Positions 12,248 to 38,713 of a DNA stretch of 44,371 nucleotides are shown piece by piece. How positions within the stretch are numbered: position 1 is the stretch's first letter; each line of letters starts with the position of its first letter. The DNA comes from a virus. The position numbers and the translations under genes were made by a program. Where the stretch lies: IMG/VR virus record IMGVR_UViG_3300050821_001788, positions 1 to 44,371 of that record; one strand, given 5' to 3'. The notes under the pieces are model-generated. The model worked only from the letters and a program-made list of their open reading frames with translations, was not told where the DNA came from and did no database searches.

Positions 12248-12763
12248 ATGCCTTTTACTCTCAACTATCTTCGATCCATTCTAGACTACGATCCGTTTGA
12301 GACCGGTCTATTTACTTGGCGTCAGCAAGTTGGCCGCCGTGTAAGGGTTGGTGAAGTTGCAGGGTCTTATGATAAAGACGGCTATATTGTAATTCAAATC
12401 GGTGGTGTTAAATATAAGGCTCACCGATTAGCCTATCTCTATATGACTGGAGAATGGCCTGAGGAAGAAATCGATCACAAGGACGGCGACCCAGCAAATA
12501 ATGTCTGGAGCAATCTTCGTGATGCGACGCGTAGCGATAACTGCGCAAACTCTAACCGAGAATTAGGCGAGTCCGGCTTCAGAGGAGTCAAGTGGGTCCC
12601 GAGTACCAGAACTTGGATTGCAAGGGTCTCATACGGATATCAGCGGATATGTCTCGGACCGTTTGGCACAGCAGAGGAAGCTAACGAAGCCTACTTAGCT
12701 GCTGCTAAGACTGTTCACGGAGAATACGCTCTCCACAATCGACACCCTGAAACAGGAGCATAA
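12248..12763 (+). CDS. HNH homing endonuclease with AP2 DNA-binding domain
   Basis: A 171-residue protein. HRLAYLYMTGEWP and EEIDHKDGDPANNVWSNLR (about 59-91) form an HNH_3 nuclease core with D76-H77 and two asparagines, and residues 109-160 (GFRGVKW, WIARV, LGPFGTAEEANEAYLAAA) are an AP2-type DNA-binding domain. This pairing is typical of free-standing phage homing endonucleases. It is inserted between the scaffold and major capsid genes, where no host-range or assembly role is expected, and is somewhat richer in A and T than its neighbours. Ribosome site GAGGAAA precedes the ATG. Confidence 0.92.
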   Translation: MPFTLNYLRSILDYDPFETGLFTWRQQVGRRVRVGEVAGSYDKDGYIVIQIGGVKYKAHRLAYLYMTGEWPEEEIDHKDGDPANNVWSNLRDATRSDNCANSNRELGESGFRGVKWVPSTRTWIARVSYGYQRICLGPFGTAEEANEAYLAAAKTVHGEYALHNRHPETGA

Positions 12764-13811: not shown

Positions 13812-14345
13812 ATGATCCTCGATGGTCTTTTAGTCTTCACCGGTCCTTCTGGCACGGGCGATCTCCCGACCACTGGTACCCAAAACTCCTCCAACGTTCT
13901 TGATCTGGGCCTTGTAGGCCTTCCCGCATCCATCTCAGGCGGTGGCGGTGGTGGTGCTCGAGATATCGGCATCGGCGACGATCCGGCGATGAAGCTTCTG
14001 GTCCAGGTCCTCACGGCCTTCACAGGCGGCACCTCGCTCCAAGTCGCTCTCCAAGGTGCCCCTGACTCCGGCACCGGCACTCCAGGCGCCTACACAACCA
14101 TGCTCACCGGCCCCGCAGTAGTCGAAGCTAACCTAATCGCTGGCTCTCGCATCCTCGACGACGATATGCCTCGGCCTGTTCCTGGCCAAGCGATCCCCCG
14201 CTACCTCCGACTCTCCTATATCACCGTCGGAACCCACACCGCTGGCGCCATCTTCGGCACCATCGTCCTCGACCGTCACGATCTCCCGCTACAATCCAAC
14301 GCGACTCTCGGTGGCTATCCCGCCGGGATCACCGTTGCGAACTAA
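13812..14345 (+). CDS. Bbp16-like capsid cement (decoration) protein
   Basis: A 177-residue protein. It begins MILDGLLVFTG, contains NVLDLG, a glycine-rich loop (GGGGGG), then RDIGIGDDPAMKLLVQVLTAFTGGTSLQVALQGAPD, and ends with RYLRLSYITVGTHTAGAIFGTIVLD, the ordered beta strands of the Bbp16 jelly-roll family. In BPP-1 the corresponding protein sits on the capsid surface and cements coat subunits. Its place directly after the major capsid gene supports this. Confidence 0.88.
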   Translation: MILDGLLVFTGPSGTGDLPTTGTQNSSNVLDLGLVGLPASISGGGGGGARDIGIGDDPAMKLLVQVLTAFTGGTSLQVALQGAPDSGTGTPGAYTTMLTGPAVVEANLIAGSRILDDDMPRPVPGQAIPRYLRLSYITVGTHTAGAIFGTIVLDRHDLPLQSNATLGGYPAGITVAN

Positions 14346-14356
14346 GGAGCGCCGCA

Positions 14357-14821
14357 ATGAAAAACTTCCTCCACCGTTGGGGCACTACCTTAGCGCTGCT
14401 CGCGATCCTTGGCAGCGTCGGGATCGCCCAGAACATTACCCAATCGGTCCAGCTTTCCCAGGACCCGCGTGGTACCATTGGCGTAGACACCACTGGTAAC
14501 ATCTACTTTCAAAACAACAAACACATCCTCTCGTCCCCGAACGTCTCTCCACCGCCGGTACTCTCTGCTTGCATCACTGGCGGCTCCCCGACCCTAACCG
14601 GAACCGACTTCTCTGGCACCATCGTCTCCGGTACCACTGCTTCCACCTCCTGCGTCGTTACCTTCGGCGCAGCCTTCCTCACCGCACCGCGTTGCGTCGT
14701 AACTTGGCAATCCGGTCCGCTCGTCGCAATGTCTTGGACCACATCGACCACTGCACTGACGATTACCCAAACCTCCACCGCGTCAGTCACGATCGACTAC
14801 ATCTGCACCTCGACATCATAG
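14357..14821 (+). CDS. Secreted-type hypothetical protein 1 (Sec signal peptide)
   Basis: A 154-residue protein. Residues 1-24 form a weak Sec signal: basic residues, a hydrophobic core (LALLAILGSVGIA) and a likely cut before QN. The mature part is rich in S, T, V and G, has four cysteines that could form disulphides, and reads like beta-sandwich repeats (SCVVTFGAAFLTAPRCVVTW, TTALTITQTSTASVTIDYIC). No family is named. It is first in a run of similar export-signal genes after the cement gene; AAGGAG precedes the ATG. Confidence 0.7.
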   Translation: MKNFLHRWGTTLALLAILGSVGIAQNITQSVQLSQDPRGTIGVDTTGNIYFQNNKHILSSPNVSPPPVLSACITGGSPTLTGTDFSGTIVSGTTASTSCVVTFGAAFLTAPRCVVTWQSGPLVAMSWTTSTTALTITQTSTASVTIDYICTSTS

Positions 14822-14831
14822 GAGAATGAAA

Positions 14832-15476
14832 ATGATCAAACGCTTTCTCCTATCGCTAGGAGCCTTGGTAGCGCTTGCTACCTCGGCCTTGGCCCAGATC
14901 GCTAGCGTTCCGCAAGTCGGCCTTACCACTGGCTACTTAGCCAAAGCCACCTACTCATCGGCCTTCTTTGGCTTCGTTCCGTTCACCGGAGGTACAGACG
15001 AAATCTGTATCTCCGGCTCCGCGTCGAAGGTCGTCCGCATAAACCGTATCTCCCTAGGCGGAACAGCCTCAGCGATCGTCAACCTCCCGGTCACGATCCT
15101 TCGCCGGGCCTCACTCGACACCGGCGGAACCCCCGCAACCACCACGGCCAACCCGGGCGTCACTACCCAAATCGCTTCCCGCGATACGGGCCAAGCGCCT
15201 AATACCGCTGCGACCGCAGTCCTCGTCTCCTACACCGCAGCGCCAACCATCGTCGACTCCGCACCTGTCTACCTCGACTCCGGAACGATGGTCCTATCCC
15301 TAACCGGTACCGGTGCGGGTATCGGTAATCTAATCTTCGACTGGTCGCGGGATATCGAAAACAACGCTCAAGTCCCGACCCTCCGCGGAGCCGCTCAGCA
15401 AATCTGTGTCAACTTTAACGGCACCACCCCCGGTACCGCGTTGTTGAACGGTTCTATTGCCTGGACGGAGGAATAG
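14832..15476 (+). CDS. Secreted-type hypothetical protein 2 (Sec signal peptide)
   Basis: A 214-residue protein starting MIKRFLLSLGALVALATSALAQ, a clear signal peptide with an ALA-Q cleavage site near residue 22. The mature protein is beta-rich and low in charge, with KVVRINRISLGGTASAIVNLPVTILRRAS, a pattern like phage surface or capsid-fibre proteins. I chose the ATG at 14832 over 14826 because GGAG is 7 nt rather than 1 nt away. No catalytic motif is visible. It sits between two other signal-peptide genes. Confidence 0.7.
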   Translation: MIKRFLLSLGALVALATSALAQIASVPQVGLTTGYLAKATYSSAFFGFVPFTGGTDEICISGSASKVVRINRISLGGTASAIVNLPVTILRRASLDTGGTPATTTANPGVTTQIASRDTGQAPNTAATAVLVSYTAAPTIVDSAPVYLDSGTMVLSLTGTGAGIGNLIFDWSRDIENNAQVPTLRGAAQQICVNFNGTTPGTALLNGSIAWTEE

Positions 15477-15479
15477 CCC

Positions 15480-15914
15480 ATGCGAAAGCTTATCGCCGCA
15501 CTTGTTCTCTGCATCGGGCTAGCAAGTGCGGCGCTAGCTCAGGTTGCGCTTTTTACACAGATACCGATCGCTGGTAATCTCAGTAATATCACCAACGGTG
15601 CCACCTTCACAACCGGTACCGCTACCGCTACCCTTACCGGCGTCGCAGGCCGGTGGACCTATATCTGCGGCTTCGTTATAACCTCCGCAGGAACAACCTC
15701 CGCAACCCTCGGCGCCGTAACCGTCACCGGCACCGTCTCTGGAACCTTGCCATTCGAATACTCCTTCGTCTCTACTGGTCAAGGTATCCTCGGCATCGCC
15801 TTCGGCCCGGGTTGCATCCAATCCTCGGCCCAAAACACCAATATCGTCGTCAACGTTCCCGCAGGTGGCGCAGGGACCGTCGGCGCAGTAACCGCATGGG
15901 GGTTCACAAATTGA
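15480..15914 (+). CDS. Secreted-type hypothetical protein 3 (Sec signal peptide)
   Basis: A 144-residue protein with signal peptide MRKLIAALVLCIGLASAALAQ (ALA-Q cut near residue 21). The mature part is T, G and A-rich, with two cysteines (YICGFVITS and FGPGCIQSS) placed to form a disulphide, which would suit an oxidising periplasm. The fold looks like a single beta sandwich. No known family. It overlaps the next small gene by TTGA. Confidence 0.68.
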   Translation: MRKLIAALVLCIGLASAALAQVALFTQIPIAGNLSNITNGATFTTGTATATLTGVAGRWTYICGFVITSAGTTSATLGAVTVTGTVSGTLPFEYSFVSTGQGILGIAFGPGCIQSSAQNTNIVVNVPAGGAGTVGAVTAWGFTN

Positions 15915-16090
15915 CCCGCATCATCCGCATAATCCTCATCCTCGGCCTCTGCACTTCCCAAGCCTCGGCCCAGCTTCTCCATGGAGTCACTGACTCACTC
16001 TCTGGCGGTGGATCAATAATCCCCCCTACCTGTAATGGCACCATAGACCTATCTTCTGGCTGTGTTCAGCCAATGCTAGGAGGCCTATAA
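15911..16090 (+). CDS. Small secreted-type protein 4 (Sec signal peptide)
   Basis: A 59-residue protein, most of which is a signal peptide (RIIRIILILGLCTSQASAQ, cut before Q) plus a mature part of about 39 residues with glycine, two cysteines and a PMLGGL end. I prefer the TTG at 15911, which overlaps the upstream TGA and has GGGGG 8 nt before it. An in-frame ATG at 15896 would add five residues. It ends in a TAATG overlap. A small exported peptide in a virion operon has no obvious role. Confidence 0.5.
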   Translation: MTRIIRIILILGLCTSQASAQLLHGVTDSLSGGGSIIPPTCNGTIDLSSGCVQPMLGGL

Positions 16091-18459
16091 TGCGTAAGCT
16101 CTTACTTGTATTAGCTTTCCTAGGCCTAATCAACCCGGTCCTTGCTCAAAACTATAACGCTACCCCTGGATCAGGTCTAGTCTTTGGTTCAAAGCTAGTC
16201 ACAGCGGTCAACTACCCGCAGATCGTCTTCTGCGATCCAACGACTCCTTCTCAATGTGTCGGGGTCAATGCGTCTGGCCAAATGACTGTCCTAGTCGCTG
16301 GCACTGTAGCTGCGACGCAATCTGGCACTTGGAACATCAATAACATCAGTGGTACCATCTCACTTCCAACTGGAGCAGCCACTTCAGCCCTACAAACTAC
16401 TATCAATACCACCCTTGGTTCGCCGTTCCAAGCCGGTGGATCGATTGGCAATACAACATTCGCCGCGACTCAGTCTGGTACTTGGACAGTAAACCCGACC
16501 ACTGCGGCAAACTGGGGCATTGGTGCGACCGCTGCAGCCGTACCTGCCAATGCCGTCTTCGGAGGAATGTCTCAAGGCGGTAACCTAACCGGTCTCACAG
16601 GCACCTCCGGTAACCTCAACGTCCAATGCGCGAACTGTTCTGGCTCAGGCGTCTCCACCGCTGACGAAGCGGCCTTTACCGCAGGCACATCCCTATTCGC
16701 TGGCTCCGGTGGATTCTTCCAAACTACCGCTACTAGCAACCCACTGACCACCGGTCAGCAAGGTATGTTCCAAGTTACGGCTAACCGTGCATTGTTCACT
16801 AACCTCCGCAATGCGTCCGGTACTGAAATAGGAACATCCACGACCCCACTTGTTGATACCGCTCGCGTGGTAGGCAACGCAGGTGCGGTGATGGATGCAG
16901 CAGGGCAGAACGCTGCCGCCCCCGCGAACTGGCTAGCCACTGGATGCCAATTCCAAACAACCCCAACCACTATCACAGCAGGCAATGCCTCCCCGTGCCA
17001 GATGGATAGCGCGGGTAATATCCTAGTCAACGTTAAGTCCGCAACTGGTATCGCTCCGGGTACTGCGCCCGGTACGTTAACCGGCTCATGGATTTTAGGA
17101 GAAGTTACTACCGCTACTCCTACTGATTATACAACAGCTACGCTCGATTCTTTATCACTAACAACTGACGGTGGGCTTCGTTCTGCCCCAACTGCTCCTG
17201 CGGTTACAACCATTCAAACCGCAGCTGTCGCTAATGGTAACGGCACAAACCTAAGCACACAAGGCTACACCGCTGCCGTCCTCAACGTCCTCTGTTCTGT
17301 CGCCTGTTCCGGTGGCACCACAATCAATTTCGAAGCTAGCGTTGACAACACTACCTTCGTTCCAATCCAAGGCATCAACACTGGTGCTAGCACGATCGCC
17401 ACGACTACAACAACTTCTGGCGATTGGATGTTTAACCTTGCTGGTTATTCATTCCTCCGTGCGCGTATTAGTGCCTATTCAGCGGGCACGATTTCGGTTA
17501 AGGCCTATCAGATTACAAATACTGGCCTCCCGCCAGTTATGAATTCAATCATAACCAATACCCCTGCTGTAACTTTAGCTTCGACCACGATCACTGGCAC
17601 TGTAGCTGCTACTCAATCCGGTACGTGGAATATTGGCACGGTGACAACGCTTCCAGCACTACCTGCCAACCAATCCGTGAACGTCGCCCAATTCGGTGGT
17701 GTATCAACATCTACTGGTCAAGTTGCGGTTAGCACTGCACCAACTACTGCGGGTAATACTGCCCTTGTTGTCGACCTACGTCCTGATAGCCCTGGTATCA
17801 TTGCACTCGGTCAAACAACTAAGTCAGCCTCAGTGCCGGTTACGATTGCTTCTGATCAACTAGGTGCGAATACAGCAGCCAATTCATTACCGGTTACCAT
17901 TGGCCCTGCTCTACTGGGCTCTTATTGCATGGGAGCTAGTACTGGCACGATGGCTGCTGGTCTAGCTGGTGGATCGCCCGTATATTCATTCCGCTATGGC
18001 GGAGCCAATCTAGCAATCATCCGCAAGGTATCGATAGAGGCTGACGACGTCACCACGGCGTTCGTAGCTGGTACGGCCAAATTTGATTTGATTGCTGCTA
18101 GGTCGTTTACCGCTTCCGATACCGGAGGGACTTCTCCTACCTTGACAGGTAATAACGGCAAGTTGCGCACCAGTTTTGCTACTACTGCCATTTCCGATCT
18201 ACGTATTTCTTCCACCGCTACCTTGACAGCAGGCACCCGAACGCTCGACGCGCAGCCATTGGCTACGATCTCGTTTGCGATTTCTACCAATATCGACGCG
18301 GTGCTACTTCCGACTACTGACCTGATTAGACAAAACGTAGGCGAGAGCCCGCTAGTATTAGCTACCAACGAAGGCTTTGTTATTCAAGCAACAGTACCCG
18401 GAACCGGAACTTGGTTTACATCAGTTAGAACTTGCTGGGATGAAGTGAGCGCCTTCTAA
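16090..18459 (+). CDS. Large secreted-type fibre-like protein 5 (Sec signal peptide)
   Basis: A 789-residue protein. Residues 1-19 are a clear signal peptide (MRKLLLVLAFLGLINPVLA, then Q). The rest is very low in charge and rich in T, A, G and N, with at least three copies of an AATQSGTWN-type repeat (near residues 75, 127 and 502), a repeat known from phage and exported adhesin-like proteins. The C-terminal 200 residues are more complex and may be a globular tip. It could be a fibre, an adhesin or a surface coat; no enzyme motif is visible. TAATG overlaps link it to both neighbours. Confidence 0.7.
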   Translation: MRKLLLVLAFLGLINPVLAQNYNATPGSGLVFGSKLVTAVNYPQIVFCDPTTPSQCVGVNASGQMTVLVAGTVAATQSGTWNINNISGTISLPTGAATSALQTTINTTLGSPFQAGGSIGNTTFAATQSGTWTVNPTTAANWGIGATAAAVPANAVFGGMSQGGNLTGLTGTSGNLNVQCANCSGSGVSTADEAAFTAGTSLFAGSGGFFQTTATSNPLTTGQQGMFQVTANRALFTNLRNASGTEIGTSTTPLVDTARVVGNAGAVMDAAGQNAAAPANWLATGCQFQTTPTTITAGNASPCQMDSAGNILVNVKSATGIAPGTAPGTLTGSWILGEVTTATPTDYTTATLDSLSLTTDGGLRSAPTAPAVTTIQTAAVANGNGTNLSTQGYTAAVLNVLCSVACSGGTTINFEASVDNTTFVPIQGINTGASTIATTTTTSGDWMFNLAGYSFLRARISAYSAGTISVKAYQITNTGLPPVMNSIITNTPAVTLASTTITGTVAATQSGTWNIGTVTTLPALPANQSVNVAQFGGVSTSTGQVAVSTAPTTAGNTALVVDLRPDSPGIIALGQTTKSASVPVTIASDQLGANTAANSLPVTIGPALLGSYCMGASTGTMAAGLAGGSPVYSFRYGGANLAIIRKVSIEADDVTTAFVAGTAKFDLIAARSFTASDTGGTSPTLTGNNGKLRTSFATTAISDLRISSTATLTAGTRTLDAQPLATISFAISTNIDAVLLPTTDLIRQNVGESPLVLATNEGFVIQATVPGTGTWFTSVRTCWDEVSAF

Positions 18460-19214
18460 TGAAACGTTTAATTGCCCTTTTACTTTGCGTAGCGCTTTGC
18501 TGTCTTCAAGCAAACGCAGCGGGTTGGTTACCACTTGCTAAGTCTGGCGGTGGGGGTGGTGGCACAGTCACACTTCAGGATAAAAGCACCGCTGTTGTAG
18601 ATTCAACTATAGCTGCATCTCCATACACCGGAACGGCAAATATCACCGTTACCGGGTCGCTGACGAACCCAGCGATGACGATCACGTTGGTTTTTGGCGC
18701 TACCGTTTCCGCTGTTACTGCTCATTGGGATAGTGCAGGTGCTAATCAAGCCCTAACACAAATCGGTACGGCGGGTGAAACTACCGGGCCAACCTCCACC
18801 TATATTTTTGGTATGGTAGGGCAGCCTACGGCGGGTAATAAAACTTTAAATGTTACTTGGACCGGAACCGCTAACGAGTTACAGATTTTCGCAGAGACTT
18901 GGATAGGGGTTAATCAAACATTCGCTACGGCGTTCCCATCTGGTCATGTTTCTACGACAAATAGTGCAGCTATTTCTGGTGGCGCTACCGCAACACAAAC
19001 TATAACATCAGCCACTAATGACGCAGTGCTTGCGTCTTTTTGCAATGATCTAACATGGACATCCATCGGAGCCACGTCGTTTTATTTGACGAATGGCGGC
19101 TTTGTCGCGGGTGGCTCTAATCATGCCGCAGGCGCAGTATCCGTCAACCTAACGGCAGTCAATAATGGTGGAGATCACTGGTGCGGTGTTGGAATCGATA
19201 TCGTACATAATTAG
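18459..19214 (+). CDS. Secreted-type beta-sandwich protein 6 (Sec signal peptide)
   Basis: A 251-residue protein with signal peptide MKRLIALLLCVALCCLQANA (ANA-A cut), a flexible GGGGGG linker near residues 32-37, and a beta-sandwich-like domain with NKTLNVTWTGTANELQIFAETWIGVNQT, a pattern seen in phage tail-surface proteins resembling lectin folds. It may bind a glycan, but no binding residues can be assigned. Its T, A, G and S content and lack of charge match its neighbours. TAATG links it to the preceding fibre-like gene. Confidence 0.65.
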   Translation: MKRLIALLLCVALCCLQANAAGWLPLAKSGGGGGGTVTLQDKSTAVVDSTIAASPYTGTANITVTGSLTNPAMTITLVFGATVSAVTAHWDSAGANQALTQIGTAGETTGPTSTYIFGMVGQPTAGNKTLNVTWTGTANELQIFAETWIGVNQTFATAFPSGHVSTTNSAAISGGATATQTITSATNDAVLASFCNDLTWTSIGATSFYLTNGGFVAGGSNHAAGAVSVNLTAVNNGGDHWCGVGIDIVHN

Positions 19215-19225
19215 AAAAGCTTGGA

Positions 19226-21430
19226 ATGATCACGCGTCGAAGGGCATCTACATTGTTAGCTTCTGCGGCCACGCTACTTCTTGATAAGCCAGGAAAGGCT
19301 CAACTCGGCACGCTTCCGTATAGTGGTGCGGCAATTGGTTCTGGCCCAGTCACCGGATTTAGCCAACTCAAGATCGGTGGCGGTGGCGAGGTTACCGGCA
19401 TTAGCGCGGCCAACGACGGCACGCTAGTATGTCGCACCGATGTCGGCGGCTGCTACCTTTGCCCGTCGGGCACGACGAAGTGGCAGCAACTGATCGTCAA
19501 ATCGGCTTGGCCCGCCGCCAACTTCGGCTGGCAGAACTGGACCACCTCCAACGGTGGTGTCTTTGCCATCGCCATTGCCCCATCCAATAGCCAGGTGATC
19601 TATGTAAGCTTCCAGCAATTTATTTTTGTTTCGATTAATGGCGGCGCGTCGTTTACTAAGACCAGTTGTCCACAAGACACCGGCGCGGATGCCAACGGCG
19701 GCGGCGAGCGCGCCAACAACCATCGCCTTGCGGTGGACCCAGCCAATCCGGCTATCGCGATCTATGGTAGCACGCTCGGGGTTTACTACACTACCAACAC
19801 TGGTAGCACTTGGAACCTGATTCCTGTAGCGACCATTCCAGCAGCTTCACCTTCAGGAGAATACGTCGCATTCGATCCCAGCACCACCAGCGGCGGCTCG
19901 ACGCCCGGAATTTGGATACACAGCACCGGTCACGGTGCCTATCATGGCACTGGTGGGGTGGCTGGCACATGGTCGGGTCCGACTGGTCAAACGACGTGCA
20001 GCGGGCTGGCAGTCGATTTGAACGGTACGGTCTACCTGACCATCGCAACCTTGACAACGGGTGTTTACGTCTTTTCTGGAGGTTCATGGTCGCTCAAGAC
20101 GGTCCCAAATAGCGGCGGTCCGACGGGAGTTTGCGCCGATCCGAATACAGCAGGACGTGCGGTGTGCGTCGATCAAGATGGGCAGCTAAGCGTTACGGTC
20201 AATAGCGGCTCAACGTGGTCCGACGTCATTGCTGCCAACAACCATACCTACACAGTCCCTGCCGGGCAGGTGACTTGGATCGCGAACTATCTCGCGGGCG
20301 GCATGACCATGTTTTGCTTCGACTGCGTGTTCGATCCGTCGCATAGCAACACCCTTTATTGCGGCCAAGGCAATGGCGTTTCGGTCTGCGCCGCCCCGCA
20401 AACTCAACCAACGGCGTGGGTTGACCAGACGCTCGGCATCGAGGAGCTTGATGCAACCAGGGTTATCGCCCCACCAAGCAGTGGCAAGCGTGTGGTCTCT
20501 GCCTGGGATCATCAGGGACTTGTTAATACATCTCTCACTACATTTCCGATCAAATGCGTTCCCAATTCCGCTGCTGGCGCGTTGTTATCGGCGGGCTGGG
20601 CCTGCGACTACGCTTCTAGCGACTCCGCGAACACTTTCGTCATTCTCGCGAACTTCACGGACGATGCCCAAGAGACCTCCGGCTACAGCAACGACGGTGG
20701 CGTCACATGGACGCATTTTGGCAGTACGTCCTATTACTCCAGTGACAATGGCGGTATCGCAGCGGCGGATGTCAGTAACTTCGTCGTTCAATCAGGGGAT
20801 ATTGGACCGTTCTTTACGACTAACAAGGGAGCGACATGGACTGCCTGCACGGGGGCTCCGACCAGCGGATATAAATCAGTACAGCGGGCTTTTCAGCCGG
20901 AATATCTGGTAGCGGATCGCGTTAGTATTGGCACGTTCTATATCTTCAACCCCACCAATGTGAACGTCTACCGTTCGACTAACCAAGGCGCATCGTTCTC
21001 GTTGATGGGCACGCCTGGTGGTGGCATTCAGAACGCCACCAAACTGAAGGCCGTCAACGGCAACGCCGGGCATCTTTTCTTTACCGCTGGGAGAGGGGCC
21101 GGGACCACGCTGCGACATTCCACCGATGGCGGCGCGACGTGGAACAATTTCGGGGCCTTCACCGAGGTTGAGTGTTTCGGTATCGGTAAGGCGGCGGCGG
21201 GACAGAGCTACCCATCGATCTATGTTTATGGTACACTGACATCTTCCGGCGTTTACGGCCTATTTAGATGCATTGATGGTGTGGGAACGACATGGACGTT
21301 GCTCGTTAACGGACCGCCGCTAGGGATTGGGACATCATGGGTCTCATCGGCCGAGGGCGACATGGACAACTACGGCTATATTTATTGCTCGTTTTTTGGC
21401 AACGGCTATGCTTATGGCTATTTTCCATGA
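19226..21430 (+). CDS. Tat-signal beta-propeller protein with BNR/Asp-box repeats, GH74-like
   Basis: A 734-residue protein. It begins MITRRRASTLLASAATLLL, a twin-arginine signal, with a likely cut at GKA-Q near residue 26. The rest is a beta propeller with Asp-box/BNR motifs: SINGGASF, TTNTGSTW, SNDGGVTW, STNQGASF and STDGGATW, spread from about residue 130 to 640. The repeat spacing and beginning (TGISAANDGTLVCRTDVGGCYL) resemble GH74 xyloglucanase-type propellers, which act on plant or exopolysaccharide glycans. Catalytic aspartates cannot be assigned by eye. It may degrade host or environmental polysaccharide, or be a binding module only. Confidence 0.75.
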   Translation: MITRRRASTLLASAATLLLDKPGKAQLGTLPYSGAAIGSGPVTGFSQLKIGGGGEVTGISAANDGTLVCRTDVGGCYLCPSGTTKWQQLIVKSAWPAANFGWQNWTTSNGGVFAIAIAPSNSQVIYVSFQQFIFVSINGGASFTKTSCPQDTGADANGGGERANNHRLAVDPANPAIAIYGSTLGVYYTTNTGSTWNLIPVATIPAASPSGEYVAFDPSTTSGGSTPGIWIHSTGHGAYHGTGGVAGTWSGPTGQTTCSGLAVDLNGTVYLTIATLTTGVYVFSGGSWSLKTVPNSGGPTGVCADPNTAGRAVCVDQDGQLSVTVNSGSTWSDVIAANNHTYTVPAGQVTWIANYLAGGMTMFCFDCVFDPSHSNTLYCGQGNGVSVCAAPQTQPTAWVDQTLGIEELDATRVIAPPSSGKRVVSAWDHQGLVNTSLTTFPIKCVPNSAAGALLSAGWACDYASSDSANTFVILANFTDDAQETSGYSNDGGVTWTHFGSTSYYSSDNGGIAAADVSNFVVQSGDIGPFFTTNKGATWTACTGAPTSGYKSVQRAFQPEYLVADRVSIGTFYIFNPTNVNVYRSTNQGASFSLMGTPGGGIQNATKLKAVNGNAGHLFFTAGRGAGTTLRHSTDGGATWNNFGAFTEVECFGIGKAAAGQSYPSIYVYGTLTSSGVYGLFRCIDGVGTTWTLLVNGPPLGIGTSWVSSAEGDMDNYGYIYCSFFGNGYAYGYFP

Positions 21431-21470
21431 TTTTTATCATACTGTGATCAACAAACAAAAGGAGCTTAAT

Positions 21471-22136
21471 ATGGCAAGATGGCAGTTAACCGAACCTCAT
21501 TACCTTAACGTTCCCGGGACTAAATGGGAACTCACTATGAACGATCGTAAGACCAATCGCCCGGTGCGTAAGACTTATACGGTTCCGTTACATCTTCATC
21601 CGGATATCGAAGCCGACTGGACTCGGCGCGATGGTGAAGAAGGCATTATTACCGTTTGTCATGAAGGCAAAGGACATCCTGACGGTCGAGACGTTACGTT
21701 CGTTGGCCCACCGACTCCGGGTATGCTTCCGCTTGATGATGAGGCTAAAGCCATCTCCAGCAAATTCGACTGGAAGCCGACTCAAGGGTTAGACGACGTG
21801 TCGCAAGCCGAAAGTCATACGTCCAAGATTCTCGGTGGGCTTATCGATCAACTAACCGACATCAAGGTCAAGGCGACTGAAGCTCCAGGGATCGCTGGCA
21901 TGGATAAATTCATGGAAACCATGACTGCGATGATGGCACAGAACCAGCAGATTTTGATGCTACTCGCGGGGAAGGTTGCTACGACCGAACCCGTGCCAAA
22001 GGCAACTGACGAACGTTCAATCGAACAAATCGCCGCGGACCTTGGTATCGAACGCGAAGTCGATCTCGAAGAACCACTTCCGCCTGAGATACCCCCGCCC
22101 GTTGTCGAACGCCCTCGCTCCGCGCTACGGAGATAA
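21471..22136 (+). CDS. Hypothetical phage protein in the fibre module
   Basis: A 221-residue protein. Residues 1-80 look like a small beta domain (RWQLTEPHYLNVPGTKWELTM, TRKTYTVPLHLHPD, DVTFVGPPTPGMLPLDDEA), residues 110-170 are helical and methionine-rich (MDKFMETMTAMMAQNQQILMLL), and the tail is acidic and proline-rich. No signal peptide, unlike its neighbours. I chose the ATG at 21471 because AAAGGAG lies 6 nt before it; the frame is open further upstream, inside the propeller gene. Function unknown. Confidence 0.65.
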   Translation: MARWQLTEPHYLNVPGTKWELTMNDRKTNRPVRKTYTVPLHLHPDIEADWTRRDGEEGIITVCHEGKGHPDGRDVTFVGPPTPGMLPLDDEAKAISSKFDWKPTQGLDDVSQAESHTSKILGGLIDQLTDIKVKATEAPGIAGMDKFMETMTAMMAQNQQILMLLAGKVATTEPVPKATDERSIEQIAADLGIEREVDLEEPLPPEIPPPVVERPRSALRR

Positions 22137-22139
22137 CCA

Positions 22140-22565
22140 ATGACATCCCAGCTAGACCTAGACCAAGGAGGCACCTTTCGCCAAATGCAGAAGGTCTTCT
22201 TTGGTCCTTCTGTCGGCTGGATATGGGTGCCTGCGACGGTGATACTTCCAGTTACTGTTGCGGGCACTATCGTTGTACAAATTGGTAACTCGCTGATCAC
22301 CGTTAACGTAAACGGTGCTGTGACGTTACAGTTTCCAAAGTTCAAAGGCAACGCAGCAGGAGCCGGCGGAGTTCCTGGCTCCTTCACTGTGAATCCAATC
22401 GTAGTCGTCGATATCGGTGGGTTCGCCACGGCTAATCCGATAACACTACTCCCCGGTGCTGGCGAAACCTTCGACGGACAAGCTTCGATCTCACTCTCCA
22501 GCAATTACGGTGCCTTTACCCTTCAGCCTGATGTCATCAACGGAGGAGCTACGTTAATCCAATGA
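22140..22565 (+). CDS. Hypothetical phage structural-type protein
   Basis: A 141-residue hydrophobic, beta-rich protein (TVAGTIVVQIGNSLITVNVNGAVTLQFPKFKG), with a pattern of alternating strands typical of small tail-associated proteins in podoviruses. It carries no signal peptide. It ends in an ATGA overlap with the fibre-like gene that follows and probably is made with it. No specific role can be given. Confidence 0.6.
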   Translation: MTSQLDLDQGGTFRQMQKVFFGPSVGWIWVPATVILPVTVAGTIVVQIGNSLITVNVNGAVTLQFPKFKGNAAGAGGVPGSFTVNPIVVVDIGGFATANPITLLPGAGETFDGQASISLSSNYGAFTLQPDVINGGATLIQ

Positions 22566-24235
22566 AAAAGCTCCTCCTTATCGCGCTTCTGGCCCTTCTT
22601 CCAAGCCTTGCTCAGGCCCAATGCAATGGTGTCTTTGCCGCTAATACCGTCTGCGGAAACAATACCGTATCACCACGAACTCCATTCGCGATCCCATCAT
22701 CCACCAACCTTTCCGGTCCTGGCACTACCGTAGTCAACGACCTCGTTCTCTGGGGCAATACCTCAGGCACTTCTCTACTCGATAAGGCCCCTAGTGCCTT
22801 TACTAAGACCGATGATACCAACGTCACTATGTCCCTTGGAGGGACACCCTCGACCGCGCTGGTTAACTCGATGTCCGTTACCATGGGTTGGTCAGGGACC
22901 CTTGCCGCGGCACGACTAAACGCGAACGTCGTCCAAGCATTTACTAATGATACCAATGTCACCGCGTCGATCACCGCACAGAACGCAACCTTAGGCTGGA
23001 CTGGTACCCTTGCCGCAGGACGACTTAACTCCAATGTTGTTCAAGCTTTCACTAACGATACCAACGTCACAGCCTCGATCACAGCCCAAAACGCTATCCT
23101 TGGTTGGACCGGACAGCTAGCCATCGCCCGTGGTGGAACTGGCGCCTCAACTCAAGCAGGCGCAGCTGCATCGATCTTTCCCACACCCGTTACCACAGGT
23201 GACGTGGTTTATTGGAATGGTTCAGCTTGGGTTACGCTCACAGGGAATAGCACCGGTACGCAGTTTCTTGCTGAGAATGCTTCGGGCGTTCCATCTTGGG
23301 TCACGGTCTCTGGTACTGGTACAGTCACTGCGATCACTCCCGGTGCAGGTATAGTCTCCTCAGTCACAGCCTCTTGCTCTCAAAGCAACATAACTACCTC
23401 TGGCACCCTCTCCAAAGCTGAATGCGTTAATGCACAAACCGGAGTCACTTATACAATTCTCGATGGCGATCGTGCGAAGCTAATCACTGCGTCCAACATC
23501 GCATCACAAGCCTACACTATCGCTCAAGCAGGTGCAGCCTCGGCCTTTCAAGCTGGCTGGTACGTTGATATTCAGAACCTAAGTGCTAGTGGCGTTGCGG
23601 GTGCTGGTACCGTTACTATTACAGCTACTACGTCAACATTCTCTTCCACTGGTACTACCGCGCTTAAGGTTTACCCCGGTCAAACTGCCCGTATCATATC
23701 TGATGGAACCAATTACCAAGTTATCAATATCACACCCGGTGGTGGCTCCAATGTTTTATTGGCAACTCTAACTGCCAGTGCATCAGCATCCCTTTCTGAC
23801 ACAACCAGCCTCACTTCTGCCTTTAATGATTATGAAATCGTCTTCGAAAACATCATTCCAGGTACCACTAGTCAAAATTTACAATTACAAGTGCATGCTA
23901 GTGGGGCATTTCAAACTACGGGCTATATTACACAAGCTCAAGCTAACAACTCAGGTGCAGCATCTTTTGCACAAGTTACGACTTATATTTTTGTAATGTC
24001 GTCATTGGAAAGTGCTATTGCTCCTGGTATTTCAGGAAGCTGCCGTTTATTCGGCCCGCTGACCGCAGCAATTAGAAATTGGACTTGCTTCACTACTGGC
24101 GTATCAGGTTCTACAGCTATAACATTAATGTCTTCAGGCTTTTGGAATAGCGCGACTACGATCGACGGTTTCCAATTGTTATTTACTAGTGGCAACATTA
24201 CTAGTGGTACAATCAAAGTCTATGGAAAGAAATAA
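22562..24235 (+). CDS. Large secreted-type tail-fibre-like protein 7 (Sec signal peptide)
   Basis: A 557-residue protein. Residues 1-20 form a signal peptide (MKKLLLIALLALLPSLAQA, then Q). Residues about 120-191 are two almost identical 36-residue repeats containing VVQAFTNDTNVTASITAQNA and LGWTG, the second ending in ARGGTGAST, a motif known from tail fibres just before a glycan-binding or tip region. The C-terminal half (residues 240-557) is a beta-rich likely tip (LLATLTASASASLSDTTSLTSAFNDYEIVFENI, a pattern also seen in phage fibre tips). It is the best candidate here for receptor binding, but the export signal is puzzling for a virion fibre. Confidence 0.72.
   Translation: MKKLLLIALLALLPSLAQAQCNGVFAANTVCGNNTVSPRTPFAIPSSTNLSGPGTTVVNDLVLWGNTSGTSLLDKAPSAFTKTDDTNVTMSLGGTPSTALVNSMSVTMGWSGTLAAARLNANVVQAFTNDTNVTASITAQNATLGWTGTLAAGRLNSNVVQAFTNDTNVTASITAQNAILGWTGQLAIARGGTGASTQAGAAASIFPTPVTTGDVVYWNGSAWVTLTGNSTGTQFLAENASGVPSWVTVSGTGTVTAITPGAGIVSSVTASCSQSNITTSGTLSKAECVNAQTGVTYTILDGDRAKLITASNIASQAYTIAQAGAASAFQAGWYVDIQNLSASGVAGAGTVTITATTSTFSSTGTTALKVYPGQTARIISDGTNYQVINITPGGGSNVLLATLTASASASLSDTTSLTSAFNDYEIVFENIIPGTTSQNLQLQVHASGAFQTTGYITQAQANNSGAASFAQVTTYIFVMSSLESAIAPGISGSCRLFGPLTAAIRNWTCFTTGVSGSTAITLMSSGFWNSATTIDGFQLLFTSGNITSGTIKVYGKK
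22919..23134 (+). repeat. Two tandem 108-bp coding repeats
   Basis: Units at 22919-23026 and 23027-23134 encode 36-residue repeats that differ at only a few residues near their ends, while many third codon positions differ. A more distant partial copy precedes them. Confidence 0.75.
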
Positions 24236-26656: not shown

Positions 26657-29296
26657 ATGGGCCAACCAGTAATTCAAACTTCTTTTAACGCAGGCGAATG
26701 GGCACCGACCCTTTACGCTCGTGTTGATTTAGCGAAATATCATTCAGGTGCGGCGCTACTCCGCAACTTCACTGTCGACTATCGCGGTGGCGCAACGACA
26801 CGTCCAGGGACTAGATACGTCGCAACGTCGCAAAACAACGCCGCAGGGCCTCCGCGATTAGTCCGCTTTCAAGCCTCGTTCACCGTTTCTTATATTGTCG
26901 AGTTCGGTGTCTTTAATGGCGCGGGCTATGCTCGGTTCTATACTAACGGTGCACAGGTTCTATTAGGCGGTGTGCCATATACCATTGCTTCGCCCTACAC
27001 CTCGGCTGAGCTACCACAGATCAAATTCACTCAGAACGTCAACCAACTAATCATCAACCACCCTAACCATCCCGCATATATCCTAACCCTAATCTCCGCA
27101 ACCAACTGGACCCTTGTACCAGCCGTCTTTGGTTCAACTCTTGCGGCTCCTACAGGCTTATCCCCTACCACAAATCTCGCGGGGGGAACTGTCGCATATG
27201 CTTATGTAATCACAGCTGTTGACGTTAACGGCCAAGAATCTGCTCCATCAGCTTTCGCTGTATTTGGGCCTTTCTTTGCTGATATTCGAAATACCTTAGG
27301 AACTAATACTATCACTTGGACCCCAGTCACCGGTGCACAGAGCTATAACGTTTATCGAGCAAACCCTCGTTATGGTACTAACGTTCCAGCCGGTTCGGAT
27401 TTCGGTTTTGTTGGTAATGTAACCAGTGCGATATTCTATGATAGTGATATTACACCTGACTTCTCTCAAGGCCCACCGATACCACAGAACCCTTTTGCTG
27501 GTTCTGGTGTTCAGTCTGTTAATATAACCGGTACTGGGTCTTTTGGTGGTGGGTCTGCCGTTCCTGCTATATCCTTCACTGGTGGCGGTGGGTCCGGCGC
27601 TACTGCTATAGCTACGCTTTCTGCTATAGCAGTAGGTCTTAACTCGGGAGGGAATAATTATGCGGTTGGTGATATTGTATCTATTCATGGTAATACTGGC
27701 GGTTTAACATTACAGGTTACATCCGTAAACACTCTTAGCCTACTTCAGATTACTGGGTTTATAGTTATAAATAGTGGAATAGTCACTTCAGGTAACGTGC
27801 CTACAAATCCCGTTGCGGGCACAAATCCTCGTAGTGGTGTAGAAGCTACCTTTTTCGTAACTTGGGGAGTATCTTCGATTGGTCTTACATCCCCCGGTTC
27901 AGGTTACGCCACCCCGCCAACTGTTGGTATTAGTGGCGGCGCGGGTGCTTCTGCAACTGCCGTTCTCGGTGCCCCATCATCAGGCAACCCTACTGTTCCA
28001 GGGTTCATCGACCAACGCTTCGTTGAAGCTGCACCAGTACTAAATCCACAGCAGCTTAATCTTTCTCAGCCAGGGTCTTACTTCAATTTCAATACTACCT
28101 CTCCGGTGCAACCAGATAATGCAATCCAAGGAACATTAATCGCAGGAGAGCTAAGCACTATCGAATGGTTGATCACTCAGCCACAAGGTTTAATTATCCT
28201 TGCGGATAATAAAGCTTGGCTTCTCAATGGTGGCTCTCCAAGTGCAGCGGTCTCTGCTACCGAATTCGTTGCTAGACCACAGTCTTATAATGGCGCAGCC
28301 AGTGTATGTCCGCCGATCGTTGCGAATGATAACATCCTATATGTTCAATCAAAGGGCTCGATCGTCCGCGATCTCGTCTTTAACTTCTACACTAACGTCT
28401 TCACCGGTACTGATATTACAGTCCTATCCTCACATCTATTCTACGGTTTTCAGCTTCTTGAATGGGCTTGGGCAGAGGAACCTTTCAAGATCGTCTGGGC
28501 AGTTCGCAATGATGGAGCTTTGTTATCACTAACCTTCCTTAAGGAACAAGAGCTAATTGCTTGGTCGCATAGTGATACCCAAGGTGCGTTTAAATCAGTC
28601 GCGTCGATAACGGAATCGACGTCGACGATAGGTAACGTTAACGCGGTCTACACTTGCGTACAACGGAACATTAACGGAGCTAGCGTTTACTATATTGAAC
28701 GCTTCGTCGAATTAGTCTGGCCACAAGATTACAAATCCTCATGGCAGGTTGATGCTGGGATTAACTATACTGGTGCACCGGCTACGATCTTCTCTAGTGC
28801 GCAGCATCTCGCAGGTGCGGCCGTAACTGGCGTTGCGGACGGTGCCGTGATTAACTTCACCATGCCAGTCTCGGGCACTTTCCAATTCGGCGTTGGAGGC
28901 ACGCCAGGGTTAACTGGGATACCAAATGCTAGTATCGTTACCGTTGGTCTATCCTTCCTTCCGCAACTTCAAACCCTTCCGCTAGACCTTGGCGAGCCTA
29001 CTATCCAAGGTAAGCGAAAGAAGATCGCCGGGGTCACTCTCCGTGTAGCGAATGCCTTAGGCCTTTCAATGGGTCGATCTGCCGCTACAGCGCTACCACT
29101 ACAAGACCTTATCATTGGAAACGTTGGTTCAATGACGAATCAACAAGTCACCGGCCTTGTCTCAGGCGACGCGCGTGGATACATGGACCCGCTCTGGGAC
29201 GTGCCAGGGCAATACTTTATCCAACAAACCAACCCTTACCCAGCTTCTATCCTTGGAGTTATCCCAGAGATCGTAATGGGAGACACAGAGAAATGA
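26657..29296 (+). CDS. Tail tubular protein B (T7 gp12-like nozzle) with inserted module
   Basis: An 879-residue protein with the typical nozzle start (VIQTSFNAGEWAPTLYARVD, YHSGAALLRNFTVDYRGGATTRPGTRYV) and later blocks (GFIDQRFVEA, WLLNGG, SKGSIVRDLVFNF, FKIVWAVRNDGALLSLTFLKEQELIAWSH), all of the gp12 family. Six copies would form the tail end through which DNA leaves. Residues about 275-435 are an insertion with GGNNYAVGDIV and GSGYATPPTVGISGG segments similar to the module in the adaptor. The inserted part is somewhat different in codon use. Confidence 0.88.
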   Translation: MGQPVIQTSFNAGEWAPTLYARVDLAKYHSGAALLRNFTVDYRGGATTRPGTRYVATSQNNAAGPPRLVRFQASFTVSYIVEFGVFNGAGYARFYTNGAQVLLGGVPYTIASPYTSAELPQIKFTQNVNQLIINHPNHPAYILTLISATNWTLVPAVFGSTLAAPTGLSPTTNLAGGTVAYAYVITAVDVNGQESAPSAFAVFGPFFADIRNTLGTNTITWTPVTGAQSYNVYRANPRYGTNVPAGSDFGFVGNVTSAIFYDSDITPDFSQGPPIPQNPFAGSGVQSVNITGTGSFGGGSAVPAISFTGGGGSGATAIATLSAIAVGLNSGGNNYAVGDIVSIHGNTGGLTLQVTSVNTLSLLQITGFIVINSGIVTSGNVPTNPVAGTNPRSGVEATFFVTWGVSSIGLTSPGSGYATPPTVGISGGAGASATAVLGAPSSGNPTVPGFIDQRFVEAAPVLNPQQLNLSQPGSYFNFNTTSPVQPDNAIQGTLIAGELSTIEWLITQPQGLIILADNKAWLLNGGSPSAAVSATEFVARPQSYNGAASVCPPIVANDNILYVQSKGSIVRDLVFNFYTNVFTGTDITVLSSHLFYGFQLLEWAWAEEPFKIVWAVRNDGALLSLTFLKEQELIAWSHSDTQGAFKSVASITESTSTIGNVNAVYTCVQRNINGASVYYIERFVELVWPQDYKSSWQVDAGINYTGAPATIFSSAQHLAGAAVTGVADGAVINFTMPVSGTFQFGVGGTPGLTGIPNASIVTVGLSFLPQLQTLPLDLGEPTIQGKRKKIAGVTLRVANALGLSMGRSAATALPLQDLIIGNVGSMTNQQVTGLVSGDARGYMDPLWDVPGQYFIQQTNPYPASILGVIPEIVMGDTEK

Positions 29297-29709
29297 GAGT
29301 CATTGTATCCCCGTTATTTGACAATCCAATCTCATCGTTGATCGCTACCTTCTCCGGAATGAGTCGTAGGCAGCTTGATATGTTCGATTACTTTCAAACC
29401 CTTGGCGAAGTAAGCACCGGGTTCGTCGATGGTGAATTCGTCTGCTGTTGGGGCTTGATCCCACCGTCTTTCCTCTCCACCCAAGCCTATCTCTGGATGT
29501 GGGGACCGGAGCCGATACGGCATCAATTTGTCTTCATTCGCCAATCGCAGATACAGGTACAGAGAATGCTTAAGCGGTATGATACGATCGTTGGCGAATG
29601 CCTTCCGCAGAATCGATCCGCGCAGCGTTGGCTAAAATGGCTCGGTGCGGAGTTTCAGCATCCGAGGAACGGTCTCCTCCCGTTTGTGATCAGGAGAGCA
29701 AATGGCTGA
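29293..29709 (+). CDS. T7 gp13-like small internal virion protein with GNAT-like pattern
   Basis: A 138-residue protein placed, as in T7, between the nozzle and internal virion proteins. FVDGEFVCCWGLIPPSFLSTQAYLWMWG and the end ECLPQNRSAQRWLKWLGAEFQ resemble the acetyltransferase-like fold of phage gp13-type proteins, which assist assembly of the internal core. Whether it binds acetyl-CoA is not evident, because the usual pyrophosphate loop is not clear. ATGA overlap upstream. Confidence 0.75.
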   Translation: MRVIVSPLFDNPISSLIATFSGMSRRQLDMFDYFQTLGEVSTGFVDGEFVCCWGLIPPSFLSTQAYLWMWGPEPIRHQFVFIRQSQIQVQRMLKRYDTIVGECLPQNRSAQRWLKWLGAEFQHPRNGLLPFVIRRANG

Positions 29710-30241
29710 TCCAGTCTCAGCATTAGCTGCTGTAGGTGCAGTCGGCGGCGGTGTTGGAAGTATAGTCCAAGGTATCGGCGCTGGATACTCTGGTGAGGCT
29801 CAGGCTTCAGCTAGTCGTTATAAGGCCGGGGTCGCGCTTCTCAATCAACAAATTAGCAAACAAAACGCTAGTTGGGCCTTAGAATCGGGCGATATCAAAT
29901 CCGAAGAAGCTGGGCTTAAGTCTGGTCAAGAGATTGCTCAGACCAAGACCACGCAGAGCGGTTCTGGCTTCGACGTCACTGGTGGTACCAACGAAGCCGT
30001 TCGCGACACCCAGACCAAGGTCGCCCAGTTCGATCAGAACGTGATCCAATGGGACGCTGCGAAGACTGCTTGGGGGTTTGAGTCGAAGGCTGCGACGGAT
30101 GAAGCCGAATCGAAGCTTGATCTAATGGCCGCGGATACCCAATCCAAAGCTGGTAAGATTTCCGAGATTAGTTCCTTCATCGGCGGCGCTAGCAGCGTCG
30201 CGAGTAAATGGTACCAAGGTAAATCCGTGGGGATCGTATAA
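29702..30241 (+). CDS. T7 gp14-like internal virion protein
   Basis: A 179-residue protein. The N-terminus is a glycine- and alanine-rich hydrophobic stretch (ALAAVGAVGGGVGSIVQGIGAGY), followed by a long helical region rich in Q, A and K, as in the gp14 class of ejection proteins, which enter the host outer membrane during infection. It precedes gp15-like and giant ejection proteins in the usual order. Its start lies 8 nt inside the previous gene and its stop in TAATG. Confidence 0.78.
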   Translation: MADPVSALAAVGAVGGGVGSIVQGIGAGYSGEAQASASRYKAGVALLNQQISKQNASWALESGDIKSEEAGLKSGQEIAQTKTTQSGSGFDVTGGTNEAVRDTQTKVAQFDQNVIQWDAAKTAWGFESKAATDEAESKLDLMAADTQSKAGKISEISSFIGGASSVASKWYQGKSVGIV

Positions 30242-32064
30242 TGCCTACCGCGCCCGGTCTTACCCCTACTGCCGTACCCAGCGTCTACGAGCCAGAGGTC
30301 CATCTCGACGTTCCGGTCGATGCCTTTGGCGGCGCGGTAGGCCATGCGCTTCAGGGTCTCGGTGGCCAGATCGAACAGTCCTCGGATAAGATTTGGCAAC
30401 GCGCGGTTGAGATGCAAGGGCTTCAGAATGAGACTGAGGCTAAGAACGCTGACGCGAAGTATATGATGGAATCTGGCAAGATGCATGCCGAGTTCATCAA
30501 TAAGGAAGGGCTTAACGCGGGGCCGCAGGCGCTTCAGCAGCATATCCAAGAGCTTCAAGATAAGCGCGTGGAGATCAGGAACTCGCTCGGGAACCCTGCG
30601 GCGCAGAAGATGTACGACGCGTCTTCGCTCGGGTTCATGGGCCGGAATATTTTTAACGCCGCAGGCCACTCCGGCCAGCAGATGAAGGTTGCGGGGAATA
30701 AGGCCAGTGATTCGAGAATCGATCTGGCCAAGACCTCGATCGGCGAGAACCCTGAAGACGATATAAACGTCCGCAGGATGCAGCGGGTGATCGAGTCAGA
30801 GACCGAAGCCAAAGGACGCACCTCTGGCTGGACGCCGGAACAGATCGAGGCGACGAAGCAGTCTGAGGTCTCTGAGGCAGTGATGCACCGAATCGCGGGC
30901 ATCTCCAAAACCAACGCGCCTAAGGCTCAGCGGATGCTCGACGACGCGATCGAACACGGAGCAATCCGACCACAAGACGCTGAGCGAATTCAAGCCACGG
31001 TGCAGACGCAGTTCCGTGATCAAGGCTCAAGGTTTATCTCGGATAAGGTTCTCGCAGGGCGTAGGAATGGCGATGAAGAGAATAAGCCCGTACAGGACTA
31101 TATTGATACTGCTCTGGACGAAGCTAAGAAGTACTCAACCAAAGACCCGCTATTCCAAGACTACGTCCGCAATCGAGTCGTTACCGACTACAATCGCCAG
31201 AAGGCCGTCGAGACCGATGCGGATAACCAAAACGTACGAACGATTGGGCAAGCCTTGCTCAAAGGCAATAAGGAAGGCGCCCTTCCCACTTCCATCGAAG
31301 AGCTTAAATCCATCGACCCCGCCGTAGGCCCTGCATGGGATGCGATCTCCCGCGATCCAAAGAAGCAGCAGGCGGTATTAAAGCAGCTTGAGTCCAACGC
31401 TAAGGGCGACCGCGTCGTCACCACCCCCGAGAACCTTCAACAATTCCACACCTTCCGTGGCCAAGCCCTTGCGGGAACCGATGACGAACGCGCGGAGTTC
31501 CTAGCGCATAACTTTGCCACCGAAGGAAAGATGACCATCTCTCAGCGTAACCAGCTAATGACGATGCAGGATCAGCTTAAGCATCGAGCCGCCCTTGCGA
31601 CTACCGACGACCCCCGCATCGCCCGCGCGCTACGCTTCCTGAAGCCCGATATGATCGCCGCAGGTATCGATCCTCGCGGAGGCGAACAACCTCGTAAGGA
31701 CTACTACGGCTTCGTTGGTGCGATGCAGGATCAACTGGATCAATACCAAAAAGACCACCCCGGCAAACTCCCGACTATGGAAGAAGTCCGGACCATGGGT
31801 GCGCAGTTGATGCAAGAACAGATCACTTCCAAGGGCATCATATCCTTCTTCGATACGAAGGAACCATTCTACAAGATGACCGTTCCCGATGACGATCTCA
31901 AGCGCCTCCGCGAGGACCCTTACTGGAAGAAACGCAACGTAGTTCCCAACGACGATATGCTATCCCGCATCTACCGCGCTGAGCAGTTCAAAGAAAAATA
32001 CGGCGGCTCGGCCAAGAAGCCCGCAGAAGCCGCATTCCCACCTAACGCGCCTGAGGGCAAATGA
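30241..32064 (+). CDS. T7 gp15-like internal virion protein
   Basis: A 607-residue, mostly helical protein without membrane segments. It has the helical tandem-like composition of gp15-type ejection proteins, which line the channel across the periplasm with gp16 (for example YMMESGKMHAEFINKEGLNAGPQALQQHIQEL and NAPKAQRMLDDAIEHGAIRPQDAERIQATVQ). The size is shorter than T7 gp15. TAATG and ATGA link it to the neighbours. The function comes from order and composition more than direct similarity. Confidence 0.75.
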   Translation: MPTAPGLTPTAVPSVYEPEVHLDVPVDAFGGAVGHALQGLGGQIEQSSDKIWQRAVEMQGLQNETEAKNADAKYMMESGKMHAEFINKEGLNAGPQALQQHIQELQDKRVEIRNSLGNPAAQKMYDASSLGFMGRNIFNAAGHSGQQMKVAGNKASDSRIDLAKTSIGENPEDDINVRRMQRVIESETEAKGRTSGWTPEQIEATKQSEVSEAVMHRIAGISKTNAPKAQRMLDDAIEHGAIRPQDAERIQATVQTQFRDQGSRFISDKVLAGRRNGDEENKPVQDYIDTALDEAKKYSTKDPLFQDYVRNRVVTDYNRQKAVETDADNQNVRTIGQALLKGNKEGALPTSIEELKSIDPAVGPAWDAISRDPKKQQAVLKQLESNAKGDRVVTTPENLQQFHTFRGQALAGTDDERAEFLAHNFATEGKMTISQRNQLMTMQDQLKHRAALATTDDPRIARALRFLKPDMIAAGIDPRGGEQPRKDYYGFVGAMQDQLDQYQKDHPGKLPTMEEVRTMGAQLMQEQITSKGIISFFDTKEPFYKMTVPDDDLKRLREDPYWKKRNVVPNDDMLSRIYRAEQFKEKYGGSAKKPAEAAFPPNAPEGK

Positions 32065-38053: not shown

Positions 38054-38713
38054 ATGCCTGATATCATGCAATACATCTGGCCACTGACCACGCTAGTGAT
38101 CTTCGGCGGTATGCTAGCTCTCTGCTGGAAGGCGTTGAACATCGCACATGATCTTGCGCAGATTGTGCTTAAGTCAGGGTTGGCGCAGCCGGGACAGGTG
38201 CCGCAGGTCTTGCCGATACCAAAGTCGGTACCAGTTGTACCCTCGCCTCCTATAGTCCCGGCTCCCACCCCGCCCACTCCCGAAGTCCCCGACGAAGCCG
38301 TAGACGTAGGCCTAGTGAACTTCATCAAGAAACAAGAAGGCTACTCCGCAAAGGCCTACTGGGACTTTAAGCAATACACCATCGGCTACGGTACCAAGGC
38401 CAACTCAGCAACCGAAGTTATCGACGAGGCCGAAGCCGAGCGTCGACTCCGCGCTGAGATCGTTGTGGCTGATAAGCTGGTTACCAATTTTGCCCCCGGC
38501 CTTCCAAAGGGCATCCACCAAGCCCTACTCGATCTAACCTACAACGCCGGGTCCGGCTGGGAACACCAATCCCTCGGCGCTGCGGTCAAGGCCGCGAAAT
38601 GGGACACCGTCAAAGCAGACATCCTCCAGTACAACCACGCTGGGGGACAGGTAAACGCCGCTCTAACCAAACGGCGCGAGGCTGAAGTATCGTGGTTCGA
38701 CAACCCTTTATAA
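38054..38713 (+). CDS. Membrane-anchored GH24 lysozyme (endolysin)
   Basis: A 219-residue muramidase. Residues 9-30 are a hydrophobic anchor (WPLTTLVIFGGMLALCWKAL), residues 45-80 a proline-rich linker, and residues 85-219 a GH24 lysozyme with E95, D104 and T109 (KKQEGYSAKAYWDFKQYTIGYGT region), close to the usual E-x8-D-x5-T. It cleaves peptidoglycan for lysis. The N-terminal anchor could be a signal-arrest-release (SAR) type, which would allow export by the host Sec system without a conventional holin. It heads the lysis cassette. Confidence 0.9.
   Translation: MPDIMQYIWPLTTLVIFGGMLALCWKALNIAHDLAQIVLKSGLAQPGQVPQVLPIPKSVPVVPSPPIVPAPTPPTPEVPDEAVDVGLVNFIKKQEGYSAKAYWDFKQYTIGYGTKANSATEVIDEAEAERRLRAEIVVADKLVTNFAPGLPKGIHQALLDLTYNAGSGWEHQSLGAAVKAAKWDTVKADILQYNHAGGQVNAALTKRREAEVSWFDNPL

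Follow-up and report, generated by a model that had tools for sequence, protein, structure and literature searches.

A block of signal-bearing genes among the virion genes of a BPP-1-like podovirus, and a possible late route for its split tail fibre

The late region and its inserted block

The record studied here is a linear virus contig of 44 kb; the window is the whole stretch of 44,371 nucleotides that was analysed. It belongs to a BPP-1-like podovirus: terminase, portal, protease, capsid, Bbp16, tail tube and internal proteins follow the order found in Bordetella phage BPP-1, Burkholderia phage BcepC6B and Escherichia phage phiV10, and the capsid protein is 46-55% identical to those of BPP-1-like phages. 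Early genes lie at the left end, on the minus strand, and the replication genes, to the right of the lysozyme gene, are also on the minus strand. The features of the late region are collected in Table 1.

Table 1. Features of the late region of the window. Single positions are gene starts; a slash marks the predicted signal cleavage site.
Position	Strand	Product	Signal	Remarks
7010		terminase
9463		portal
11524		protease
12767		capsid
13812..14345	+	Bbp16-like head protein	none	upstream edge of block; Pfam PF21190, E 1.7e-9; phrog_427
14357..14821	+	small protein, predicted exported, family F5	..SVGIA/QNI	4 Cys
14832..15476	+	predicted exported protein, family F11	..TSALA/QIA	2 Cys; alternative start 14826
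15480..15914	+	core protein of the clade, predicted exported, family F2	..AALA/QVA	predicted beta-sandwich
15911..16090	+	very small protein, predicted exported	..QASA/QLL	2 Cys; TTG start
16090..18459	+	large fibre-like protein, predicted exported	..NPVLA/QNY	10 Cys
18459..19214	+	predicted exported protein, family F20
19226..21430	+	GH74 xyloglucanase-like double propeller	Tat-like N-terminus	17 Cys
21471..22136	+	conserved gene, family F0	none	charged; in 31/49 loci
22140..22565	+	predicted connector, family F8	none	Cys-free; gp9/gp10/TSP4 XD1 fold
22562..24235	+	putative tail fibre, signal-bearing	..LAQA/QCN	6 Cys; ATGA overlap with 22140 stop
25484		tail tube A		downstream of block
26657		tail tube B		downstream of block
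29293-38051		internal virion proteins
38054		lysozyme

In BPP-1-like phages Bbp16 lies almost directly before tail tube A, whereas in the soil clade of the window about 10 kb, coding mostly for apparently exported proteins, lies between the two. The fibres of BPP-1 and BcepC6B are encoded after the large internal protein; those of the window, which carry signals, precede tail tube A. The typical layout has head-tail genes without export signals, and the window departs from it, although this layout is not strictly a defining one.

The capsid gene has 542 relatives in IMG/VR. In the distant ones that were compared (41-66% identity, in Bombella, Saccharibacter, Acetobacter, Agrobacterium, Gastranaerophilales and one further proteobacterium) the block is absent and Bbp16 runs almost directly into tail tube A; the block is thus a feature of the window's soil clade. 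Among GenBank phages, no close relative of genes 16090, 19226 or 22562 was found. Hints on the host conflict: matches to metagenome-assembled genomes point to Terriglobia (82%) and to Telmatospirillum (85%), and may be binning errors, and the N-terminus of fibre 22562 has no match in five host-side genomes. Two near-full relatives carry a signal-bearing protein with the mature start AADLPTKA and no Pfam match (L239, 406-1086; L242, 1256-1951); it presumably resembles Rhizobiales outer-membrane proteins, a possible host hint.

Some features outside the block can be recorded here. An HNH endonuclease gene (12248-12763) sits between the protease and capsid genes. The internal protein at 32061-38051, of 1996 amino acids, begins with the Pfam domain LPD22, which is found in large polyvalent proteins. 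The lysozyme (38054-38713) has a hydrophobic N-terminal segment and is possibly a signal-anchor endolysin. On the minus strand, the gene at 42808-43920, which adjoins that of a family A DNA polymerase, fuses a uracil-DNA-glycosylase-like domain to a 3'-5' exonuclease domain.

Export signals and paired cysteines

An earlier note on this DNA had described eight signal-bearing genes in the block, seven of Sec type and one Tat-like, and all eight were recovered, each no more than a few bases from the position it gave. Signals were scored with a measure of our own, built on the n, h and c regions (charge, hydrophobic core, cleavage site), rather than with SignalP. In a calibration set of 42 E. coli genes, the two that code for exported proteins both score above the cut, and the false positives are mainly membrane proteins; the background, taken from 2180 opposite-strand ORFs of relatives, is a pass rate of 1.6%. 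By this predictor the Sec N-termini have the features of Sec substrates: a positive n-region, a hydrophobic core and an A-x-A site. Six of them score 11-12.6; 14357 itself scores lower, at 8.65, but its relatives pass clearly, 72 of the 79 related ORFs in family F5 having a signal. The Tat-like 19226 is lower still, at 6.7, and none of the other late genes of the window that were tested gives a signal score. Where the earlier note counted six signals ending in A-Q, six Sec signals do so and the Tat-like one as well, or seven of the eight. A lipoprotein signal was considered for the A-Q-C N-terminus and rejected: A-Q-C is not a lipobox.

The block recurs in related genomes. Across 47 relatives, 22% of the genes that follow the capsid gene score as signal-bearing (109 of 487), versus 2% of those before it (7 of 371), and families F1, F2, F5 and F11 recur with their signals. 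The core family, F2, counts 151 ORFs across 133 loci, and its member at 15480-15914 is the real gene, not the overlapping ORF 15653-16090. The predicted fold of this protein has many tied matches (best Z 8.7), from which we draw neither function nor kinship. Genes 16090 and 18459 have few relatives: all 20 ORFs related to the former bear a signal, and relatives of the F20 domain of the latter carry versions both with and without one. The low charge attributed to the block is borne out, D, E, K and R making up 1.6-10.4% of its predicted exported proteins versus 18.7% of the capsid protein and 28% of 21471.

Cysteines tend to be paired in proteins whose folding takes place in the periplasm. Since the predictor ignores the cysteines of the mature part, their parity is a separate test of export. 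The mature parts of the seven Sec proteins contain 4, 2, 2, 2, 10, 2 and 6 cysteines, all even, in keeping with the disulphide capability that had been proposed for part of the block. In the non-redundant set of mature signal-bearing proteins that contain cysteines, 60 counts are even and 8 odd (binomial P 3e-11), or 33 and 5 when taken by family (P 2e-6), whereas signal-less neighbours divide into 61 even and 63 odd. In the core family F2, 53 of 69 members have four cysteines, 16 have two, and none has an odd number. The Tat-like 19226 has an odd number, which agrees with the pairing rule because a Tat protein would fold before export; this is one case. Parity thus gives independent, if indirect, support to the signals, and we consider it very probable, from these sequence features taken together, that the proteins of the block are exported.

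The Tat assignment of 19226 is plausible but weak: its N-terminus, TRRRASTLL, has the twin arginine of the motif S/T-R-R-x-F-L-K, and the later positions are off consensus. The earlier note had also missed what the rest of this protein is. By sequence, residues 37-731 match the GH74 structure 6p2m of the PDB (E 1.3e-44), Pfam reports Sortilin-Vps10 (E 1.2e-10), and the homology to GH74 xyloglucanases extends over the full length, with two propellers. Of the two aspartates that are catalytic in GH74 enzymes, the first is kept (RTDVGG), and the candidate for the second is shifted by one position (AWDHQG vs AMGDQG). A single phage record, MT838787, of faecal origin, holds a relative, at 23.5% identity.

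The predicted connector gene and its fibre

Also overlooked by the earlier note was the informative partner of fibre 22562, the signal-less gene 22140 that precedes it. The predicted structure of 22140 (pLDDT 79) matches, over about 95 residues, the XD1 domain of CBA120 TSP4 (Z 12.5), T4 gp10 (Z 11.0) and T4 gp9 (Z 10.0), so that a connector fold is predicted for it. The XD1-type module occurs in connector proteins that carry the fibres or spikes of the tail (PMC8825819). Unlike these proteins, 22140 is a short stand-alone gene, and its fibre would be exported separately.

In sister phages, a search with a 22140 profile picks up its domain at the start of long fibres that lack a signal, and a wider scan for it yielded 108 loci, in which the connector is either a gene of its own or fused to a fibre. 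Where it stands alone, the gene that follows bears a signal in 71 of 73 cases, and on inspection both exceptions resolve as signal-bearing fibres: in one, the start of the fibre is masked by a longer ORF in another frame; in the other, an HNH-like gene (L148, 6400-6944) is inserted exactly between connector and fibre. When the connector is fused to a signal-less fibre, the next gene bears a signal in 0 of 19. At 68 of the 78 readable stand-alone junctions, the stop of the connector and the start of the fibre overlap as ATGA. On the connector tree the split and fused states need seven changes by parsimony, at least four of them forced by well-supported branches; the split and the signal have thus been gained or lost together repeatedly.

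The two kinds of fibre share modules: the fibres of L176 and L128 are 40% identical over 249 amino acids (E 1e-37), and those of L074 and L166 are 54% identical over 171 residues. Per 100 amino acids, signal-bearing fibres have 2.03 cysteines and fused fibres 0.56; the counts are even in 44 and odd in 4 of the former, and even in 3 and odd in 9 of the latter. The cysteine habit tracks the signal and not the fibre. The mature N-terminus of the signal-bearing fibres is conserved as QC.GVF..NT.CG. As the earlier note held, 16090 and 22562 both look like fibres; from the comparison of genes, 22562 is, we conclude, the distal half of a tail fibre split from its connector domain, 22140. Some relatives, such as L018, L023 and L031, have large signal-less beta-rich proteins inside the block, and other receptor-binding proteins may exist there.

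A possible route to the virion and its alternatives

Assembly of tailed phages is taught as a wholly cytoplasmic process. Assuming that the block is indeed exported, the following course can be conjectured. In late infection the Sec pathway of the host, or Tat in the case of 19226, would export the block proteins. The connector half of a polypeptide that is single in other relatives would remain in the cytoplasm and be built onto the particle, while the receptor-binding half, 22562, would be exported, lose its signal at A-Q and fold with disulphides in the periplasm. Lysis would bring particle and fibre together, and the fibre would dock on the connector, probably by its conserved mature N-terminus. 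The companions of 22562 would probably take the same route, 14357, 14832, 15480, 15911, 16090 and 18459 being most likely disulphide-hardened appendage or decoration proteins added likewise. For the fibre itself, we put the chances of export, oxidation and docking at lysis through 22140 at about even. The wider proposition is a little more tentative: a widespread clade of tailed phages with extracytoplasmic maturation, in which fibres and decoration proteins would be exported, oxidised and joined to completed capsids no earlier than lysis, through the connector, the switch having occurred repeatedly.

The argument for docking runs as follows. The position that holds the fibre in BPP-1 and BcepC6B holds a lysozyme here, and consequently the only fibre candidates of the window bear signals. 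Some protein of the phage has to serve adsorption, and the connector has been kept and is coupled to the exported fibre, so that docking on it seems the simplest course. The absence of another fibre is a firm argument for the window only, since the block of the near-complete relatives G010 and G015 still includes one or two large proteins without a signal. The tailspikes of P22 attach to finished particles in extracts, which makes late docking chemically reasonable; docking after lysis must compete with dilution. Connector and fibre N-terminus do co-diverge (r 0.39), but no more strongly than linkage predicts, the control of connector versus upstream neighbour giving r 0.35, and we retain this result as suggestive only.

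Export would equally be expected if the proteins were no part of the virion and acted at the surface of the infected cell or in its surroundings, as adhesins or by masking receptors, so that superinfection is excluded or progeny are protected from debris. The modules of the fibre are of receptor-binding types, and a fibre in solution would capture receptors as they are made. We nevertheless find this reading unlikely: the connector is always kept, in most cases translationally coupled to the exported fibre, no signal-less fibre remains in the window for adsorption, and sister phages have the fibre's modules in one chain with the connector. A long-term, lysogenic conversion of the surface is disfavoured in particular, because no tyrosine integrase was found in 14 near-full genomes, whose records may lack ends. 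The earlier note had offered two ideas, an exported set that changes the cell surface and fibres assembled outside the cytoplasm. The export common to both is strongly supported, and the second fits better because 22562 is, by all appearances, a split distal half and split and signal always co-occur; surface or superinfection roles are possible for the small core proteins. It is more doubtful still that the set is an extracellular kit of depolymerases and carbohydrate binders that clears exopolysaccharide for the progeny, before or at lysis. The GH74-like 19226, a weak endosialidase-chaperone match at the end of one relative's signal-bearing fibre, and a beta-helix within one fused fibre would suit such a kit, but most block proteins have no enzyme match, the second catalytic aspartate of 19226 is off its expected place, and the alternation of split and fused connectors is left unexplained.

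Two further readings concern the signals themselves. Fibres could join the virions at the envelope before lysis, for instance if uncleaved signals tethered them in the inner membrane near membrane-docked particles; the signals are hydrophobic enough for this, and connector and fibre genes overlap. However, the strong A-x-A motifs and the conserved Q at +1 suggest cleavage, and the connector has no signal, which leaves this course improbable. Virion proteins with hydrophobic N-terminal segments exist generally, and the N-termini might thus be anchoring or trimerisation peptides that are merely signal-like. We regard this as very improbable: their n, h and c regions are textbook-like, with A-x-A sites, and even cysteine counts are confined to signal-bearing proteins and, for one and the same fibre gene, to the form that has a signal.

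If export followed by docking at lysis does take place, the intracellular particle has yet to become infectious, disulphide bonds are available to the fibres, and fibres of different phages in one lysate could be swapped after lysis. Split and fused relatives then offer a natural comparison for the question of what leads a phage to export an adhesin of its own, and annotators should not take signal peptides beside tail genes for errors. Judging by the literature that was searched, such a pathway would have no precedent among tailed phages: no report of signal-bearing tail fibres was found, in a search with incomplete coverage of journals, and a study of rumen phages gives 0-2 signal peptides per genome (PMC5723332). 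The filamentous phage M13 has a virion protein with a Sec signal, G3p (PMC8310372); filamentous phages assemble in the membrane, whereas the window is that of a tailed phage, whose capsid and internal proteins are made in the cytoplasm. Endolysins that bear a signal, such as Lys44 of fOg44 and the SAR endolysins, are phage proteins that use the host Sec (PMC6116005), but they are lysis enzymes, unlike the fibres of the window.

Parallels are also found in cultured phages. The late genes of BPP-1 carry no signals, and those of phiV10 only on the spanins. However, gp19 of BcepC6B (L234, 20959-22032) and gp35 of PBR31 (L236, 11932-12741) have a good signal, after which they match tail-fibre family phrog_11393 in its distal part only: as in the window's fibre, a signal replaces the proximal part. 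The passages on PBR31 that were searched do not remark on the signal of gp35. Unlike the window's fibre, each is a single gene placed after an ordinary signal-less tailspike, and no 22140-like partner was identified for either. Since BcepC6B and PBR31 are cultured and carry these signal-bearing homologues, the proposal of export and docking at lysis is open to experiment.
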